From: a bacterium
GTDB lineage: Bacteria; Sysuimicrobiota; Sysuimicrobiia; Sysuimicrobiales; Segetimicrobiaceae
Assembly (NCBI GenBank): GCA_035308905.1
Contig: DATGFS010000023.1
Location: 1 to 64,000, forward strand
DNA length: 64,000 nucleotides
Reading direction: 5' to 3'
Of this stretch, positions 3,328-57,544 are shown piece by piece (the first letter of the stretch is position 1; every line of letters starts with the position of its first letter). Made by a program: the position numbers and the translations under genes. The notes below the pieces were generated by a model, which worked only from the letters and a program-made list of their open reading frames with translations, was not told where the DNA came from and made no database searches.

Positions 3328-3759
3328 ATGACCTGGAAGTTCTCCGTCAGCACCCAGACAGACCCTGAGGCCCTGCGAATCGTACGCCGGATGATCCGGG
3401 ACCTCGTCGAGCGAGAAGGCGGGTCAGAGGAGGACGGCTGGAGCCTCGAACTCGCCCTCGGCGAGGCGTTGTTCAACGCCCGCAGCCATGCCTACGGCGA
3501 CGCGACCGGGCCCGTCGAGGTCGCCGTCTCGTTCGACCAGGGCGTCTTTACGCTGACCGTGCGCGATCGCGGCGCGCCGGCCTCGGTGCCGCAGATTCCC
3601 CGCGATCTCCCCGCCGACCGAAAGCGTCTCGGCCTGTTCTTGATCTCGGCGGTCGTCGACCGCGTCGACGTGAGCCAGAACGAGGACGCGGCGGGGGGCC
3701 TGCGTGTCACCATGATCAAGAGAGTTCAGCCTTCGGTTATGCCGTCGATGTCAGAGTGA
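3328..3759 (+). CDS. Anti-sigma regulatory factor, RsbW-like HATPase
   Basis: A 143-residue stand-alone GHKL ATPase domain of the serine kinase anti-sigma class (RsbW/SpoIIAB-like). The N-box is LELALGEALFNARSHAYG, followed by the G1 box region around VRDRGAP and the G2-like KRLGLFLISAVVDRVD. Such proteins phosphorylate an anti-anti-sigma (STAS) partner or hold a sigma factor. No STAS or sigma gene lies next to it, so its partner is elsewhere. The ATG follows GAGG and the gene has its own promoter. Confidence 0.88.
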   Translation: MTWKFSVSTQTDPEALRIVRRMIRDLVEREGGSEEDGWSLELALGEALFNARSHAYGDATGPVEVAVSFDQGVFTLTVRDRGAPASVPQIPRDLPADRKRLGLFLISAVVDRVDVSQNEDAAGGLRVTMIKRVQPSVMPSMSE

Positions 3760-3977: not shown

Positions 3978-5183
3978 ATGCCCGTAGCCACGTCAGACCG
4001 CGTAACTGTTGAAGGACACGTCAGCCGCGGCTTTGAGGCCGTCCGCGACGTGTTTGCCGAGAACGTCGCTCAGAGGGATGAACTGGGCGGCGCCTGTTGC
4101 GCCTATTACCGCGGCGAGAAAGTGGTCGACTTGTGGGGCGGCGTTCGGGACAAGCGAACTGGCGAGCCGTGGGAGCGGGATACCATGGTCCTCGTTTGGT
4201 CCGCGACCAAGGGACTCGCCGCGATGACAATGGCCCTCGCCCACTCCCGAGGCTGGCTCGACTACGAGGCGCCGGTGTGCCGCTACTGGCCGGAATTCGC
4301 GCAGCAGGGGAAGGAGAAGATCACCGTCCGTCAGCTCCTCGCTCACCAGGCCGGGCTGTTCGCCTTTGATGAGCCCGTCGATCGCAGCGTGGTCGCCGAC
4401 CTGGATCGCCTGGCGATTGTGCTGGCCCGTCAGAAGCCCGCGTGGGAGCCGGGGACGCGGCAAGGCTATCACGCCCTGACCCTCGGGTTCTATGAAGGCG
4501 AGCTCCTGCGGCGCGTGGATCCTCAACATCGCAGCCTGGGACAGGTCTTTCAGGACGAGATCGCGTCGCCGCTTGGGCTGGACGTCTATATCCGTGTCCC
4601 GGAGTGGATCCCGAACTCCAGGCTGGCATGGCTCGCACCGCCGAGCCCGATTGACATGCTGCTCAACTTTCCGCTTCGCCTCACGCTGGACTCGATGAAC
4701 CACCACTCGAACATCTACCGGGCGTTGATCGCGAACCCGGGGACCGGGATCGTCCTCGACAAAGACCGCGTCTACGCGCGCAACTTCGAAGTGCCGTCCG
4801 GGGGTGGCGTCGGCACTGCGCGAGGTATCGCGCAGGCCTACAGCGTCTTTGCCACGGGAGGACGGGAACTGGGGTTGCGCCCCGAGACCCTACAGTCGTT
4901 AGCAGCCCCGGCGATCCCGCCGACGCGCGGCTTTTATGACGAGTGCATGAAGGGCTTCGGCGCGGAGTTCGCCCTCGGTTTCATGAAGTCGAGCCGGGCT
5001 TGGCCGTTCGGCAGCGCGGGTTCGTTCGGCGCACCCGGAAGCGGTGGTTCGCTCGGCTTTGCCGATCCGGTGGCCGGCGTCGGCTACGCCTACGTGACCA
5101 GCCAGATGGGGACGCGCTTGGCAGGGGACCCGCGCGATGTGGCGCTGAGGAACGCGGTCTATTCCGTGATCCGACCGGCCTGA
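3978..5183 (+). CDS. Serine hydrolase, beta-lactamase class C/EstB family
   Basis: A 401-residue beta-lactamase-fold serine hydrolase. The nucleophile motif is SATK (S75, K78) in LVWSATKGLAAM, and a second active-site Tyr is likely in GYHALTLGFYEGE. Helix GWLDYEAPVCRYWPEF and ITVRQLLAHQAGLF are typical of esterase/D-aminopeptidase members. No signal peptide is seen, so it is probably cytoplasmic. An in-frame ATG at 3942 exists, but GAAGGGAG just before 3978 favours the later start. It is more likely an esterase or amidase than a true beta-lactamase. Confidence 0.85.
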   Translation: MPVATSDRVTVEGHVSRGFEAVRDVFAENVAQRDELGGACCAYYRGEKVVDLWGGVRDKRTGEPWERDTMVLVWSATKGLAAMTMALAHSRGWLDYEAPVCRYWPEFAQQGKEKITVRQLLAHQAGLFAFDEPVDRSVVADLDRLAIVLARQKPAWEPGTRQGYHALTLGFYEGELLRRVDPQHRSLGQVFQDEIASPLGLDVYIRVPEWIPNSRLAWLAPPSPIDMLLNFPLRLTLDSMNHHSNIYRALIANPGTGIVLDKDRVYARNFEVPSGGGVGTARGIAQAYSVFATGGRELGLRPETLQSLAAPAIPPTRGFYDECMKGFGAEFALGFMKSSRAWPFGSAGSFGAPGSGGSLGFADPVAGVGYAYVTSQMGTRLAGDPRDVALRNAVYSVIRPA

Positions 5184-40066: not shown

Positions 40067-40109
40067 AAAAACGAAGACGCCCTCTGAGGGGTATCCCCAG
40101 AGGGCGTCT
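40067..40109 (-). terminator. Intrinsic terminator inside the glnA leader
   Basis: On the minus strand, arms 40109-40095 (AGACGCCCTCTGGGG) and 40091-40075 pair with one bulged base and a 3-base loop, followed by TTCGTTTTT (to 40067). It lies between the glnA promoter and the glnA start codon, so it acts as an attenuator; it would also stop readthrough from the VOC gene. Confidence 0.85.
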
Positions 40110-51133: not shown

Positions 51134-52405
51134 GTGAAACCATCTGACATGCCGGTGATTGCCGACCTGCACCTCCACTCGAAATTCAGCCGCGCCACCA
51201 GCCGGGACATGGATGTCGAAAACCTCGCCAGGTGGTGCGGCTTCAAAGGCATCACCGTTGTCGGCACCGGCGATTTCACCCATCCGGTCTGGCTGCGGGA
51301 GCTCAAGTCCAAGCTGAAGCCGAACGGCCAAGGGCTCTTCACGTACGGCGGGCAGCACTTCATGCTGACCGTCGAGGTCAGCAACATCTACCCGCAGGGC
51401 GGCCGGCTGCGCAAGATCCACATCGTCGTCCTCGCGCCGAGCTTCGAGGTCGTGGACCGCATCAACGCCGTGCTCGCGCGGTTCGGCAGCCTGATGGCGG
51501 ACGGCCGGCCGACCTTGTCGCTGCCGAGCCACAAACTGGTCGAGTACGTGATGGAGATCTCCCCGGACTGCATGATCATCCCGGCGCACGTTTGGACGCC
51601 GTGGTTTTCCCTCTACGGCAGCAACTCGGGGTTCGACGCGCTATCGGAATGCTTCGGCGATCAGGCCCGCCACATTCGGGCCGTCGAGACCGGATTGAGC
51701 AGCGACCCGCCGATGAACTGGCGGCTCAGCCAGCTCGACGGGGTCATGTTGGTCAGCAACTCGGACGCGCATTCGCCGGCCAAGCTGGGCCGCGAGGCGA
51801 ACGTCCTCGACTGCGCGCTCGATTACGCGGACATGCTGCGGGTCCTGCGCGGCGAAGACCGCGCGCGCTTCCTCTACACGATCGAGTTCTTTCCGGAGGA
51901 GGGCAAGTATCACTTCGACGGCCACCGCGCCTGCGGGCAGCGGCTGTCGCCGTCGGAGACGCGCACGGCGGGCGGGCGGTGTCCCGGCTGCGGCCGGCCG
52001 GTTACGGTCGGCGTCATGTCGCGCGTCGACGCGCTCGCGGACCGGCCCGAGGGCGGGGGCGGGGACGGCCGCGTGCGGTACCGCAACCTGATCCCGCTCG
52101 AGGAGATTATCGCCGCGGCGTTCGGCTCGCAGCCCGGCACGGGCGCAGTGCGGGAGGAGTACTTCAAGATCGTGCAGGCGCTCGGCGGCGAGTTCCACGT
52201 GCTGCTCGACGTTCCGCTCGAGGAGTTGGCGCGGCTGACGCGGCCGCGCGTGGTCGAGGGCGTGCGTCGGGTGCGCGACGGGCAGGTGTCGATCCGTCCC
52301 GGCTACGACGGCGTCTTCGGCGAGATTCACGTATTCGGAGGAGCGGCGGACGAAGAACGCCGTGCCGCGGCAGCGGCGCAGCCGGCCCAGACCAGCCTCT
52401 TCTGA
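51134..52405 (+). CDS. Endonuclease Q family PHP-domain nuclease
   Basis: A 423-residue protein close to the usual EndoQ length. The PHP domain starts VIADLHLHSKFSRATSRDMD, with further metal ligands in GTGDFTHPVW, IPAHVWTPWFSLYGSNSGF and VSNSDAHSPAKLG. The EndoQ-specific FFPEEGKYHFDGHRACGQ and the Cys motif CPGCGRPVTVGVMSRVDALA follow. EndoQ nicks DNA 5' to deaminated or abasic bases (uracil, hypoxanthine, xanthine). It is mainly archaeal and sporadic in bacteria. GGAGGAGAAGG precedes the GTG start. Confidence 0.9.
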   Translation: MKPSDMPVIADLHLHSKFSRATSRDMDVENLARWCGFKGITVVGTGDFTHPVWLRELKSKLKPNGQGLFTYGGQHFMLTVEVSNIYPQGGRLRKIHIVVLAPSFEVVDRINAVLARFGSLMADGRPTLSLPSHKLVEYVMEISPDCMIIPAHVWTPWFSLYGSNSGFDALSECFGDQARHIRAVETGLSSDPPMNWRLSQLDGVMLVSNSDAHSPAKLGREANVLDCALDYADMLRVLRGEDRARFLYTIEFFPEEGKYHFDGHRACGQRLSPSETRTAGGRCPGCGRPVTVGVMSRVDALADRPEGGGGDGRVRYRNLIPLEEIIAAAFGSQPGTGAVREEYFKIVQALGGEFHVLLDVPLEELARLTRPRVVEGVRRVRDGQVSIRPGYDGVFGEIHVFGGAADEERRAAAAAQPAQTSLF

Positions 52406-53687
52406 ATCCGCCGAGCTCAGTGGGGCTGCCACTGGGCCCGAGGCGCGAGCCGGGACGCGACGCCTCCCGATACGGTCCTCGAAGCGCCCGGCCGTGGTGC
52501 TGCACCCCGGGCGCGACGCGCGGCTGCGTGCCGGCCACCTGTGGGTCTACCGCGCCGAGATCGCGCGTCTTGTCGGCGAGGCGGAGGACGGCGAGACGGT
52601 CACGGTGCTGGACGCCGCCGGCCGTCACCTCGGCACCGGTTTTCTCAACACCCGCTCGCTCATCACGGTCCGTCTGCTCACCACCTCGGACCGCGACCTG
52701 GACGAGGCCTTTTTTCGCGAACGCCTCGAGCGCGCGGCCGCGTTTCGCCGCGGCGTCGTCGCCGACACCACCGCGTACCGTCTCGTCTTCGGCGAGAGCG
52801 ATCTGCTGCCCGGCCTGATCGTCGACCGGTACGCCGGCACGCTCGTCGTGCAGACGCTGACCGCCGGCATGGACCGCCGCCGGGAGATGCTCGCGCGGCT
52901 GCTCCTGGAGCTGACCGGGGCCGGCTCCGTCTACGCCCGCAACGACCCCGCGGTCCGCCGGCTCGAAGGGCTGCCCCGCGAAACGGGGTGGGTGATTCCG
53001 CCGCGGGGCGGAGAGACCGGGGAAGCGCCGGCCGGTGACGGCCCGATCGAGGTGGCGATCGACGAATCGGGCGCGTCGTTCGTGGTGGACGTGGCCGGCG
53101 GACAAAAAACGGGCTTCTTTCTCGACCAGCGCGAGAACCGCGTGTACGCAGCCGGCCTCGTCCGCGGCGAGGTGCTCGACGTCTTCGCCTATACCGGCGC
53201 GTGGGCGGTGCACGCCGCCCGCCGGGGCGCGGAGGTGACCGCGGTCGAGATCTCGGAGCGGGCCGCCGCCGCGATCGCCCGGCACGCCGCGCTGAACGGC
53301 GTGGGAGACCGGTGCCGGGTGGTCACGGCGAACGCCTTCGACGAGCTGCGCCGCCTGGACCGCGCCCGGGCCCGGTTCGACGCCGTCATCCTGGATCCGC
53401 CGGCGTTTGTGAAGACGCGCGCCGCGCTCGAGGGCGGTCTCGCCGGGTACAAGGAGATCAACCTTAGGGCCCTCAAGGTGCTGCGCCCGGGAGGATGGCT
53501 GGTGACCTGCTCGTGCTCATACCACGTTGCCGAGGCCATGCTGGAGGCCGTGGTCCTCGACGCCGCCCGCGACGCCGGCCGCTGGGTGCGCCTCGCCGAG
53601 CGGCGGTCCCAGGCGCGCGACCATCCGGTCTCGCTCGGGGTGCCCGAGACGCGCTACCTGAAATGCCTGATTTTAGAGGTGGAGTAG
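52362..53687 (+). CDS. Class I SAM-dependent rRNA methyltransferase (RlmI-like)
   Basis: A protein of up to 441 residues. A PUA-like domain begins at VVLHPGRDARLRAGHLWVYR. The methyltransferase core has KTGFFLDQRENR, SAM motif VLDVFAYTGAWAVHAARRGA, catalytic DAVILDPPAFVKTRAALEGG and the late motif LVTCSCSYHVAEAM. RlmI relatives make 5-methylcytosine in 23S rRNA. The start is uncertain: GTG 52362 overlaps the EndoQ gene by 44 bases and adds a disordered N-terminus, while GTG 52494 starts at the PUA domain. Confidence 0.9.
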   Translation: MPRQRRSRPRPASSESAELSGAATGPEARAGTRRLPIRSSKRPAVVLHPGRDARLRAGHLWVYRAEIARLVGEAEDGETVTVLDAAGRHLGTGFLNTRSLITVRLLTTSDRDLDEAFFRERLERAAAFRRGVVADTTAYRLVFGESDLLPGLIVDRYAGTLVVQTLTAGMDRRREMLARLLLELTGAGSVYARNDPAVRRLEGLPRETGWVIPPRGGETGEAPAGDGPIEVAIDESGASFVVDVAGGQKTGFFLDQRENRVYAAGLVRGEVLDVFAYTGAWAVHAARRGAEVTAVEISERAAAAIARHAALNGVGDRCRVVTANAFDELRRLDRARARFDAVILDPPAFVKTRAALEGGLAGYKEINLRALKVLRPGGWLVTCSCSYHVAEAMLEAVVLDAARDAGRWVRLAERRSQARDHPVSLGVPETRYLKCLILEVE

Positions 53688-53694
53688 GAAGCCG

Positions 53695-53723
53695 TTGCAG
53701 GGCAGGGCGGGAAAACCTATAAT
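53695..53723 (+). promoter_or_regulatory. Promoter of the R3H-tmk-darA-holB operon
   Basis: TTGCAG (53695-53700) and a perfect TATAAT (53718-53723) are separated by 17 bp, directly after the rRNA methyltransferase gene. The predicted start is near 53730. Confidence 0.72.
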
Positions 53724-53762
53724 AATGGTAGCGATGCTTCGCCGATATCGGTGGACTCGACG

Positions 53763-53799
53763 GGAGGAGAACCCGCGCGGTTCTCCTCCTTGTCTTTTT
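53763..53799 (+). terminator. Intrinsic terminator within the leader of the R3H ATPase gene
   Basis: A perfect 11-bp stem, GGAGGAGAACC (53763-53773) with GGTTCTCCTCC (53779-53789), loop CGCGC, is followed by TTGTCTTTTT (53790-53799). It lies downstream of a promoter and upstream of the gene at 53847, so it can terminate the new transcript early. It could act as an attenuator or as the end of a small RNA of about 70 nt. Confidence 0.85.
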
Positions 53800-53846
53800 G
53801 AGGCTCGCCGCCCGGGGGCATCGAGAACGAACCGGTGAGGTGACAG

Positions 53847-55388
53847 ATGGTGGTCGCGAGCCACCAGATCCGGATTACCGACAACCTGGACCTCCTGCTC
53901 GAAATCCTGCCGCCGGAGATTCGCCGGCAGATCGAACTGCAGGCCGATCTCGACACGCTGCTGGAGATTGTGCTCGACCTGGGCCGGGAACCGGAGGCGC
54001 GATTCCCGGAGCGGGTGGTTCGAATCTCGGACGGATTCGTGGCGCGCGAGGACCTGCATCACGTCGCGAGCCGCGTGGGCGCCTTCGGAAAGGACAACCG
54101 CGCCGGCATCGAGCGCACGCTCCACCGGATCTCGGCGATCCGCAACCGGGCCGGCGACGTCATCGGGCTCACCCTGCGGGTCGGCCGCGCGGTGTTCGGG
54201 ACGGTGGACATCGTGCGCGACGTGATCGAGGCGGGCCAGAGCGTGCTGCTGGTCGGACGTCCCGGCGTCGGCAAGACGACGCTGCTGCGCGAGGCCGCGC
54301 GCGTGCTCTCGGACGAGGCCGGCAAGCGTGTCGTGGTCGTCGACACCAGCAACGAGATCGCCGGCGACGGCGACATTCCGCACCCCGGCATCGGCCGGGC
54401 GCGCCGCATGCAGGTCCCGTACCCCGAACTGCAGCACGCGGTCATGATCGAGGCCGTCGAGAACCACATGCCCGAGGTGATCGTGATCGACGAGATCGGC
54501 ACGGAAGCGGAAGCGCAGGCCGCCCGCACGATCGCCGAGCGCGGGGTGCAGCTGATCGCGACCGCGCACGGGAACACGCTCGACAACCTGCTGCAGAACC
54601 CGACCCTGTCCGACCTGGTCGGCGGCATCCAGGCGGTGACGCTCGGCGACGAGGAAGCGCGCCGCCGCGGCACCCAAAAGACGGTGCTCGAACGCAAGGC
54701 GCCGCCGACGTTCGACGTCGTGATCGAGATCCAGGACAAGGACCGGCTCGCCGTGCACCACGACGTGGCGCACGTGGTCGACCGGTTCCTGCGCGGCGCC
54801 CTGCCGAGGCCGGAGATCCGCACGCGGACCCCGGAGGGCGAAGTGCGCATCACCAGCGGCGAGGTTGCCGCGCAGGCGGCGGCCGCCTCGACGAACGGCC
54901 ACGGCCATGCCGCTCCGGTTGCGCCGCCGCAGAAGATCGTGCGCATCTACCCGTATGCGGTGAGCCGCAACCGGCTCGAGCGGGCGATCCGGGAGCTGCG
55001 GGTGCCGGCGATGATCGCCGACGCGCTGCACGACGCCGACGTGCTGCTCACGCTCAAGTCGCAGGAGCGCCGGCAGCCGAAGCGGCTGCGCGAGGCGGGC
55101 CACCGCGGCCTGCCGACGCACATCATCAAGAGCAACACGCTGTCGCAGATCGAGACCGTGCTGCGCGAGATTTTCGGCGTGCAGGACCGCATGAGCCCCG
55201 AGGAGCAGGCGATGCGGGAGGCGGAGGAGGCGATCTCCGAGGTCATGGCCGCGGCGCAGCCGGTGGAGCTCGGTCCCCAGAACTCCTACCTGCGGCGGCT
55301 GCAGCACCAGCTGATCCAACGCTACGGTCTCGCGTCCGAGAGCAAGGGCACCGATCCGTTCCGTCGCGTGGTGATCTATCCCCAGTAG
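53847..55388 (+). CDS. AAA ATPase with R3H domain (SpoIIIAA/Ycf45-like)
   Basis: A 513-residue protein. The N-terminal part matches SpoIIIAA/Ycf45-type secretion-like ATPases: LDLLLEILPPEIRRQIEL, Walker A LLVGRPGVGKTTLLREAARV, Walker B EVIVIDEIGTEAEAQAARTI and IATAHGNTLDNLLQNPTLSD. The C-terminus holds IYPYAVSRNRLERAIRELRV, followed by an R3H single-stranded nucleic acid-binding region (HQLIQRYGLASESKGTDPFR). Homologues occur in cyanobacteria and plastids; the role is unknown. GAGGTGA precedes the ATG. It heads the tmk operon and has an attenuator-like leader. Confidence 0.92.
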   Translation: MVVASHQIRITDNLDLLLEILPPEIRRQIELQADLDTLLEIVLDLGREPEARFPERVVRISDGFVAREDLHHVASRVGAFGKDNRAGIERTLHRISAIRNRAGDVIGLTLRVGRAVFGTVDIVRDVIEAGQSVLLVGRPGVGKTTLLREAARVLSDEAGKRVVVVDTSNEIAGDGDIPHPGIGRARRMQVPYPELQHAVMIEAVENHMPEVIVIDEIGTEAEAQAARTIAERGVQLIATAHGNTLDNLLQNPTLSDLVGGIQAVTLGDEEARRRGTQKTVLERKAPPTFDVVIEIQDKDRLAVHHDVAHVVDRFLRGALPRPEIRTRTPEGEVRITSGEVAAQAAAASTNGHGHAAPVAPPQKIVRIYPYAVSRNRLERAIRELRVPAMIADALHDADVLLTLKSQERRQPKRLREAGHRGLPTHIIKSNTLSQIETVLREIFGVQDRMSPEEQAMREAEEAISEVMAAAQPVELGPQNSYLRRLQHQLIQRYGLASESKGTDPFRRVVIYPQ

Positions 55389-55425: not shown

Positions 55426-56124
55426 GTGACGCTCGAGGGGCCGGACGGCGCGGGAAAGACGACGCAGGCGGCGTTGCTCGTGGAGCACCTGCGCGCGGCC
55501 GGGCACGAGGTGGTCGCGCTGCGCGAGCCGGGCGGAACGGCGATCGGCGAACAGATCCGGTCGCTCTTGATCGATCCGCGCCACGCCGAGCTCGCCCCCC
55601 GGACGGAGATGCTCCTCTTCGCCGCCTCGCGCGCGCAGCTCGTCGCCGAGGTCATCGGGCCGGCGCTGGCCCGGGGACGGATCGTCGTCTGCGAGCGCTA
55701 CCTCGACGCGTCTCTCGCCTATCAAGGGGTGGCGCGCGGCCTCGGCGTGGACCTGGTGCGGACCGTCAACGACGCCGCGACCGGCGCGCTCCGGCCGGAT
55801 CTCACCCTCCTGCTCGACCTCGATCCGGAGACCGGGCTGCGGCGCGCCCGCGCGGCGTCCCGCCTGCGCGGGACTAGCCAGCGGGATGCGCTGGCGTCGG
55901 CGGGCGCGGGGTCCGAGGGGTGGGAGGGTGGCGACCGGATGGAGCGGGAGACGCTGGCGTTCCATGCCCGCGTTCGGGAGGGGTTTCTGGCGCTTGCCAG
56001 AATTGAGCCGCAGCGCATCCGGGTGGTCGACGCGCGCCGGCCCGTCGTGGACGTTCAGCGGGAGATTACGGCGGCAGTCGACGGACTGCTCCGGGCAGAG
56101 CGTCGCGCGGGAGGGGCTTCGTGA
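55426..56124 (+). CDS. tmk: Thymidylate kinase
   Basis: A 232-residue dTMP kinase. The P-loop is TLEGPDGAGKTTQAALLVEH, the substrate motif REPGGTAIGEQIRSLL and the DR-like motif VVCERYLDASLAYQG. The lid region carries an insertion of about 15 residues (ASAGAGSEGWEGG) compared with typical enzymes. The GTG at 55426 is the only standard start after the in-frame stop at 55372, although it leaves the first beta strand short. The darA start overlaps its stop by four bases. Confidence 0.93.
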   Translation: MTLEGPDGAGKTTQAALLVEHLRAAGHEVVALREPGGTAIGEQIRSLLIDPRHAELAPRTEMLLFAASRAQLVAEVIGPALARGRIVVCERYLDASLAYQGVARGLGVDLVRTVNDAATGALRPDLTLLLDLDPETGLRRARAASRLRGTSQRDALASAGAGSEGWEGGDRMERETLAFHARVREGFLALARIEPQRIRVVDARRPVVDVQREITAAVDGLLRAERRAGGAS

Positions 56125-56450
56125 AGCTGATCCTGGCGATCGTGCAGGAAAAGGACCAGCGCCGGCTCATGGAAGGCCTCGTCGCCGCCGAATTTCAGGC
56201 CACGATGCTGGCCAGTACGGGCGGGTTCCTCCGCGAGGGCAACGCGACCATCCTGATCGGCGTCGAGGAAAACCGCGTCGACGATGTGATGGCCGTGATT
56301 CAAAAGTTCTGCCACGTCCGCGAGCAGCTGGTCAGTCCGCTGCCTCCCGTCGTCGAGCCCGTCGATTCGTACATCTCGTATCCGGTCAAGGTGCAGGTCG
56401 GGGGCGCGATCGTGTTCGTCCTGGACGTTGAGCGGATGGTGAAGGTCTAA
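56121..56450 (+). CDS. darA: Cyclic-di-AMP receptor DarA/YaaQ (PII-like)
   Basis: A 109-residue PII-like trimeric protein. The conserved EFQATMLASTGGFLREGNAT and ILIGVEENRVDDVMAVIQKF match DarA/YaaQ/PstA, which binds c-di-AMP at subunit interfaces. The GTG start overlaps the tmk stop, and holB follows at 11 bp, as in the Bacillus tmk-yaaQ-yaaR-holB order without yaaR. Its presence implies c-di-AMP signalling in this organism. Confidence 0.95.
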   Translation: MKLILAIVQEKDQRRLMEGLVAAEFQATMLASTGGFLREGNATILIGVEENRVDDVMAVIQKFCHVREQLVSPLPPVVEPVDSYISYPVKVQVGGAIVFVLDVERMVKV

Positions 56451-56461
56451 GGCCGCACCCC

Positions 56462-57544
56462 GTGTTTTTTCGCGAACTGATCGGCCAGCGCGACGCCCGC
56501 GCGGTGCTGCAGGGGGCCCTCCGAAGCGGATGCGTGGCCCACGCGTACCTCTTTGTGGGCCCGGAAGGCGTCGGCCGCCGCGCCGCCGCGCTCGCCTTCG
56601 CCCAGGCCCTGCTCTGCGCGACCGGCTTCAATGACATGGTGGCCGGCGAGTCCGCCGACAGGCGGTCCGCCGGCGGAGACGACGCCTGCGGCACGTGCGC
56701 GGCGTGCCGGAAGGTCGCCGCGGGCGCGCACCCGGATCTCCGCATCATCGCCCCCGGGGGACGCACCGAGTCCGGCGCCGAGCGCCGCGCCGTCGGAATC
56801 GAGCAGATCCGCGATCTCAAGCGCGAGGCGTCCTACCCGCCCTACGAGGCCCGATGGAAGGTGTTCATCATCGAGGACGCGGAGGCGATGCGCGCCGAGG
56901 CGGCCAACAGCCTGCTCAAGGTGCTCGAAGAGCCGCCCGCGCAGAGCGTGATCATCCTCATCTCCGAGTCCGCCTCGGCGCTCCTGCCGACGATCGTGTC
57001 CCGCTCCCAGATTGTGCGCTTCACATTCGTGCCGGCGGCGGAGATCGCCGCGGCCCTGACCGAGCGCGCCGGCGTTCCCGCGGCGCAGGCGCCGTTCCTC
57101 GGCGCGCTGGCCGGCGGACGGCCGGGGCTCGCGCTGCGGGAGTCGGCGGAGGGCGGGGCGGCGCTGGAGTTCCGCCAGGACGTGGTGAAGACGCTTGGAG
57201 CGGTCGCCGGCGGCGGACCGGTCAGGCGGCTCGAGGCCGCGGAAGCGGTCTCACGGCAGAAGGACGAGATCAACCGCTGGCTCGACACCGCCCTGCTCTG
57301 GATCCGCGACGTGGCGGTCTGGCAGGCGGCGCACGACCCGGCGCTGCTCGTGAACCTCGACCGCCGCGATCAGATCGCGGCGTGGGCCGAGCGCGCGAGG
57401 CCGGAGGGTGTGCGGCACGCGGCCGCGGCGATCGAGGGCGCCAAGACAAATTTGCAGCACAATGTCAACCCGCGCCTGGTCCTGGAGCATCTGTTTGCCG
57501 GCATCCACCTCGCGCCGGCCGACAAGCGGCCGGCAACCATGTAA
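56462..57544 (+). CDS. holB: DNA polymerase III subunit delta prime
   Basis: A 360-residue clamp-loader subunit. The start FFRELIGQRDARAVLQGALR, the modified P-loop LFVGPEGVGRRAAALAFAQA, the zinc-finger Cys cluster around CGTCAACRKVAAGAHPD, and WKVFIIEDAEAMRAEAANSL with LLKVLEEPPAQSV are typical. The start codon is GTG. It is the last gene of the R3H-tmk-darA-holB operon and converges on a zinc-finger gene. Confidence 0.93.
   Translation: MFFRELIGQRDARAVLQGALRSGCVAHAYLFVGPEGVGRRAAALAFAQALLCATGFNDMVAGESADRRSAGGDDACGTCAACRKVAAGAHPDLRIIAPGGRTESGAERRAVGIEQIRDLKREASYPPYEARWKVFIIEDAEAMRAEAANSLLKVLEEPPAQSVIILISESASALLPTIVSRSQIVRFTFVPAAEIAAALTERAGVPAAQAPFLGALAGGRPGLALRESAEGGAALEFRQDVVKTLGAVAGGGPVRRLEAAEAVSRQKDEINRWLDTALLWIRDVAVWQAAHDPALLVNLDRRDQIAAWAERARPEGVRHAAAAIEGAKTNLQHNVNPRLVLEHLFAGIHLAPADKRPATM

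Follow-up and report, generated by a model that had tools for sequence, protein, structure and literature searches.

A conserved promoter, leader and intrinsic terminator ahead of the R3H ATPase operon: a probable transcription attenuator

In the window examined here, that is the whole stretch of 64,000 nucleotides, the operon for an R3H-domain AAA ATPase, thymidylate kinase (tmk), the cyclic di-AMP receptor DarA (darA) and the DNA polymerase III delta prime subunit (holB) is preceded by a promoter, a short leader and an intrinsic terminator. Comparison across the order establishes, at the level of sequence, that these three parts go together and are tied to this operon. The element is kept before the same genes in most of the order and hence very probably serves as a brake on transcription, and we consider it likely that it acts in cis as a transcription attenuator of the operon through the terminator in its 5' UTR. 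A conserved brake at this place would mean that the level of the operon genes is adjusted jointly, in an order that is poorly known. In the operon itself, DNA replication and c-di-AMP sensing are combined with a nucleic-acid-binding ATPase that is as yet unstudied.

The element in the window and its genome

The features of the locus are collected in Table 1. A perfect TATAAT, a perfect 11-bp terminator with its U-tract and the two small hairpins GCGA/TCGC and CGGG/CCCG, all named in the original prediction, could be read in the sequence. The promoter had also been called near-consensus, which holds for the -10 box; the -35 box agrees with TTGACA at just 3/6 positions, and for this reason the promoter was not listed by a consensus scan. 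The start site of the leader was placed by inference 7 nt 3' of the -10 box, and 39 nt separate TATAAT from the terminator hairpin. The stem-loop has a predicted folding energy of -19.8 kcal/mol, and in a terminator scan of the window between 50 and 60 kb the predicted terminator was by far the top-scoring one. A TTGTNNTTT-like tract is present in most members of the window's family (f1). The CGGG-AGGAGAA-CCCG hairpin appears in the predicted fold of an RNA ending before the 3' arm of the terminator.

Table 1. Features of the R3H operon and of the element that precedes it, in window coordinates
Feature	Position	Strand	Description
RlmI-like 23S rRNA methyltransferase (rlmI), upstream gene	52362..53687	+	Outside the element; NF053718 4.6e-103, below family cut-off
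Promoter	53695..53723	+	-35 TTGCAG 53695-53700, 17-nt spacer, -10 TATAAT 53718-53723; read from sequence
Predicted leader RNA, ~70 nt	53730..53799	+	Inferred start site to end of U-tract
GCGA-TGCT-TCGC hairpin	53731..53742	+	Overlaps and excludes P1
Candidate leader hairpin P1	53740..53753	+	CGCC-GATATC-GGTG; equivalents in genus g3
CGGG-AGGAGAA-CCCG small hairpin	53761..53775	+	Within terminator 5' arm
Intrinsic terminator stem-loop	53763..53789	+	11 bp, perfect; stem GGAGGAGAACC/GGTTCTCCTCC, 5-nt loop CGCGC
Terminator 5' arm	within 53763..53789	+	Purine-only beginning GGAGGAGAA
U-tract	53790..53799	+	TTGTCTTTTT; read from sequence
R3H ribosome-binding site	53837..53843	+	GAGGTGA; read from sequence
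R3H-domain AAA ATPase, operon gene 1	53847..55388	+	Pfam Spore_III_AA 2.6e-15, R3H 9e-15
tmk, thymidylate kinase	55426..56124	+	PF02223 1.1e-52; TIGR00041 above cut-off
darA, cyclic di-AMP receptor	56121..56450	+	PF06153 4.4e-44; NF058593 above cut-off
holB, DNA polymerase III delta prime subunit	56462..57544	+	TIGR00678 above cut-off

The R3H ATPase, with its ATG at 53847, consists of a SpoIIIAA-like ATPase core and an R3H domain at the C-terminus, and tmk lies directly 3' of its gene in every genome of the order in which this could be checked. A second, shorter R3H-ATPase-like protein is encoded at G000:C1:11113-12120, at similar places in most relatives and in many genomes of the order; it is 46-54% identical over about 320 residues and is without the C-terminal part.

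The background was sampled in 1.2 Mb of the approximately 4.0 Mb genome to which the window belongs. This sample held 108 terminator-like sites, only three of which had a promoter-like site 25-210 nt upstream, namely the R3H leader, a minus-strand site at 4279 of L155 and one site within a coding region. The frequency of TATAAT, counted on both strands, is about 4.6 per 100 kb.

Some other leaders came to light in the same genome. On the minus strand of L155 (G000 contig C2), terminators at 4254-4279 and 3660-3681 belong to two adjacent genes, one of them acetyltransferase-like by reading. Each gene is preceded by TATACT/TATAAT, about 50 nt of leader and then the terminator, and GACCAGGC...AGTCCA...GGGGC is common to both leaders. 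This pair, which has no match in Rfam, may represent a small attenuator family. A second unit of promoter, leader, terminator and gene is found on the minus strand of the window at 40076-40108, ahead of a gene start at about 40024. It comprises TTGACG...TATATAAG, a leader with GGTACTAAGAGGTACC and a strong hairpin GACGCCCTCT/AGAGGGCGTC with TTCGTTTTT, the gene that follows is glutamine synthetase-like by reading, and Rfam again gave no match. It is probably the arrangement that the original prediction counted as the first. Finally, L157 (3327-3358, plus strand) and L166 (172-196, minus strand) carry leaders that are T-box-like by eye, with a GGTGG motif preceding the terminator, and the one in L157 precedes a gene that reads like leuS.

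Conservation across the order

A homologue search found 42 genomes of the same order in seven families, the next matches belonging to other phyla, and the region upstream of R3H was readable and compared in 35 of these genomes. The lineage would fit Sysuimicrobiota/CSP1-3, a phylum of one class and one order that used to be assigned to the Armatimonadota (PMC11604079). The arrangement looked for was a -10-like box, a G+C-rich hairpin within 35-90 nt, a T-rich tail and then R3H. It is kept in about 29 of the 35, that is in 11/11 genomes of f1, 7/8 of f2, 6/6 of f4 and 5/9 of f6. Promoter and terminator are thus conserved jointly before the R3H operon, which supports the attenuator reading put forward in the original prediction. 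Within f1 the -10 box is conserved in all 11 genomes, and most also have a -35 box TTGCAG/TTGCGN at similar spacing. Among the members of the order, the -10 box is TAAAAT or TAGAAT in G025, G028 and G031, and the U-tracts of G012, G020, G026 and G041 are poor.

In the remainder of the 35 genomes, namely G027, G015 (f5) and four genomes of genus g9, the arrangement was not found. In genus g9 both leader and terminator are missing, and three of the four genomes (G016, G029, G035) have TATAAT about 20-30 nt 5' of the R3H start, with no other element intervening. The promoter would seem to be the same one minus its leader, as would be expected of an operon promoter.

Within the window's genus, conservation is higher in the leader than in the spacer that separates terminator and gene. 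The identity between the window and G001 is 87% for the leader, 32% for the spacer and 85% for the start of the R3H gene, the respective values for G002 being 93%, 39% and 87%. The opposite holds in f2 (G030 vs G018), with higher conservation in the spacer, probably because the R3H reading frame starts there. At the f2 loci L013, L015 and L023 the R3H frame extends without a stop to an ATG lying a few nt past the U-tract. The annotated R3H start may differ between families, with the terminator abutting the start codon. Much of the leader outside the terminator cannot be aligned between the genera of f1, and divergence between families is strong.

The sample from other phyla, taken from a collection of named genomes, consisted of 79 regions upstream of R3H-ATPase homologues, one of which (L043) is in fact the same-order genome G027, which is without the element. 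At a terminator-like score of at least 25, a site was found in 5 of the 79 regions, whereas the reverse strand gave 7 and the 240 coding controls gave 3, which is no indication of the element in these phyla.

Leader sequence and alternative readings

In f1 the terminator is nearly invariant, as 7 of its 10 pairs never vary and none shows a change on both sides. In each of the 11 genomes of the family its 5' arm starts with a run of eight or nine purines, and in other families the arm is GGAGG/GGGGAG-rich. At the same arm positions the other terminators of the window's genome have a mean of 52% purines, and 8/9 is reached by 4 of 46. The combination of a near-invariant terminator and a purine-rich 5' arm points to recognition of sequence and not of the stem alone, suggesting that the arm may be recognised sequence-specifically.

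Less can be said for secondary structure in the leader. A regulatory role of the two small hairpins named in the original prediction was not supported. GCGA/TCGC can be paired in G001 and G002 and is absent outside the genus, while CGGG/CCCG is down to 3 bp in G001, and no conserved competitor or switch emerged. For P1, the equivalents in genus g3 include two pair changes on both sides (UGCC-AUAGG-GGUA vs CGCU-AUAGU-AGUG), and 90% of cells are paired vs 25-60% for slid partners, over 5 distinct sequences only; as a conserved leader helix, P1 is suggestive only. The f2 leader has an invariant 19-nt block, GGTGACGTTGTGAGACCCA, common to four genomes of two genera. The GAGACCC of this block is able to pair with GGGTCTC, which is just as invariant, the middle between them being variable; invariant pairs are no proof of a helix. 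By reading, GTGAGR recurs close to the 5' end in most leaders of f2 and several of f6. Over 23 leaders, antiterminator pairing between the upstream leader and the 5' arm of the terminator did not go beyond shuffles (mean z -0.36). The leaders of G005 and G030 stand out individually, and in predicted folds of RNA ending before the 3' arm the 5' arm pairs with upstream sequence in G030, G038, G036 and G032.

The strongest rival reading, which we regard as unlikely, holds that the terminator is constitutively leaky, so that a fixed read-through, independent of any signal, sets the level of the operon or shields it from transcription arriving from upstream, or that the main effect of the hairpin is to stabilise the mRNA at its 5' end. 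Such a terminator would fit the fact that a conserved antiterminator or sensor was not found in the leader comparisons, as well as the weak U-tracts of several members and the dispensability of the element, which genus g9, G015 and G027 do without. Against it stand the near-invariant sequence of the f1 terminator, whose pairs do not covary freely, and the conservation of the leader 5' of the stem, both within the window's genus and in the 19-nt block of f2. Readings as a small RNA gene or as a leader peptide are less likely than this one.

The original prediction had offered a free-standing small RNA gene of about 70 nt as the other possibility, and the genomic distribution of the element makes this the less likely choice. 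A covariance model (R1) built from the f1 leader found a single full-length copy per genome, at R3H, in the 11 f1 genomes. Its next matches at R3H leaders were in G018 (E 6e-4), G021 (0.004) and G032 (0.18), these E-values being rough and the places right. A second model (R3), built from f2, matched the R3H leaders of G033, G021 and G012 (E 0.004-0.02). With both models the R3H leaders of other genera are weak matches that rank first or nearly so. Neither model found a copy of the leader away from R3H in 43 genomes, and since both place the element only there, it is single-copy and bound to the R3H operon. The weak matches of R1 elsewhere (L225, L228, L229, L230, L231, L232, L234) were rejected as ordinary terminators or intergenic hairpins without the promoter-leader arrangement. 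Three of these loci, L231, L234 and L230, belong to genus g9 and share a hairpin, GGAGGAGAG...CTCTCCTCC, which separates two genes of an operon that is phosphonate-type ABC transporter-like by reading. This hairpin is conserved in the three g9 genomes and lies directly 5' of the ribosome-binding site of the second gene.

In addition, R3H appears to have no separate promoter. In the window's genus, the scan for -10-like boxes gave no second one between the 53718 promoter and the R3H start. In G008 and G010 the R3H ribosome-binding site is immediately 3' of the U-tract, and as the terminator runs straight into this site another R3H promoter is hardly possible there. We thus consider it quite improbable that the element is a small RNA gene in its own right, about 70-150 nt long, which acts in trans and is a neighbour of R3H by chance. 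It does have its own promoter and terminator and a sequence conserved within genera, but its leader sequence is not conserved between families, unlike many trans-acting pairing regions. Moreover, an attenuated transcript would accumulate as such an RNA anyway, and a terminated RNA of about 70 nt is the expected product of an attenuator.

A translation-sensing attenuator, in which a short ORF from the ATG at 53734 would be translated and the position of the ribosome would decide on terminator formation, is very improbable. This ATG lies only a few nt into the inferred leader and is kept in most f1 members; when read by eye, its frame often ends at a stop within the R3H ribosome-binding site. 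Nevertheless, in-frame stops at the TGA-rich GAGGTGA arise easily by chance, no ribosome-binding site precedes the ATG, and the ORF is not common to other families. The in-frame differences between G009 and G007 are all amino-acid-changing, a substitution pattern unlike that of coding sequence.

Finally, it is scarcely credible that the terminator merely ends the rlmI transcript beside a coincidental promoter: in the window the element begins just 8 nt past the rlmI stop codon, but it is kept next to other upstream genes where rlmI is not adjacent (G032, G026, G023, G014) and missing where rlmI is adjacent (G015, G027), and with the two separable both ways and the promoter conserved alongside the terminator, service to rlmI alone is contradicted by the comparison.

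Proposed mechanism and known systems

According to the attenuator reading, RNA polymerase would start at the 53718 promoter, make the leader of about 70 nt and meet the intrinsic terminator ahead of R3H, tmk, darA and holB, and the operon would be expressed only by those polymerases that read through. Termination would be conditional, read-through being the controlled step. We propose, with low confidence, that a factor acting in trans would recognise the purine-rich 5' arm while the RNA is being made, thereby preventing closure of the terminator; the recognised arm would be GGAGGAGA in f1 and GGGGAG or GGGAGGG in other families. CsrA is a GGA-binding regulator. Control of the leader by CsrA is excluded because csrA is absent from the window's own genome, which is 97.3% complete and gave 0 matches to PF02599 with positive controls working. 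Given that the element is found at this operon only and that the arm is purine-rich, feedback by an operon product would be the simplest form, and the R3H ATPase would be the first candidate.

A further step is more speculative, and we hold it to be possible although doubtful. The element may belong to a class of cis-regulatory RNA that is new and confined to the order, in which the R3H ATPase, another operon product or a ligand such as c-di-AMP would read the arm or the leader block and link tmk, holB and DarA in one feedback. If this is true, a single feedback signal would connect the c-di-AMP receptor with tmk and holB, which serve DNA replication. Should the R3H protein act on its own leader, this would provide a first testable RNA target for the widespread R3H-ATPase family.

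Comparison with known RNA families yielded no counterpart. The window gave 0 matches to Rfam at the gathering threshold, and a search of 31 leader stretches with E up to 5 returned unrelated low scores only, all below cut-off, with no match to a riboswitch, a T-box or the c-di-AMP ydaO/yuaA family. Rfam describes no regulatory RNA of this operon in this lineage, and a literature search found nothing on a leader of the R3H/tmk/darA/holB operon. The leader does share with T-box and riboswitch attenuators the order of promoter, leader, intrinsic terminator and gene; it differs from them in matching no Rfam family and, in f1, in being just about 70 nt long.

Among systems studied elsewhere, both TRAP, which binds GAG/UAG repeats, and ANTAR antitermination depend on a factor that, on the leader RNA, decides whether an intrinsic terminator forms (PMC4027176, PMC3369936). 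TRAP reads purine-rich triplets, and the R3H leader has a purine-rich 5' arm in its terminator; by reading, neither the 11-repeat site of TRAP nor the double hairpin of ANTAR was seen in the leader. A different kind of likeness is offered by the rplJL leader of B. subtilis, which is bound by L10(L12)4 in a case of autogenous leader attenuation (PMC4538822). An operon product acts there on the terminator of its own leader, which for the R3H leader is a proposal only; in both cases the element belongs to a single operon. In E. coli, Term-seq has shown that 3' ends in 5' UTRs report regulation of the downstream gene and sometimes release a short RNA that has its own function (PMC7815308). The R3H leader resembles the premature-termination attenuators of that study in having termination in the 5' UTR ahead of the controlled gene, and differs from them in that it concerns an intrinsic terminator, another operon and another lineage and is known here from sequence alone. 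We file the R3H leader as a putative, previously undescribed case of attenuation by an intrinsic terminator in the 5' UTR.
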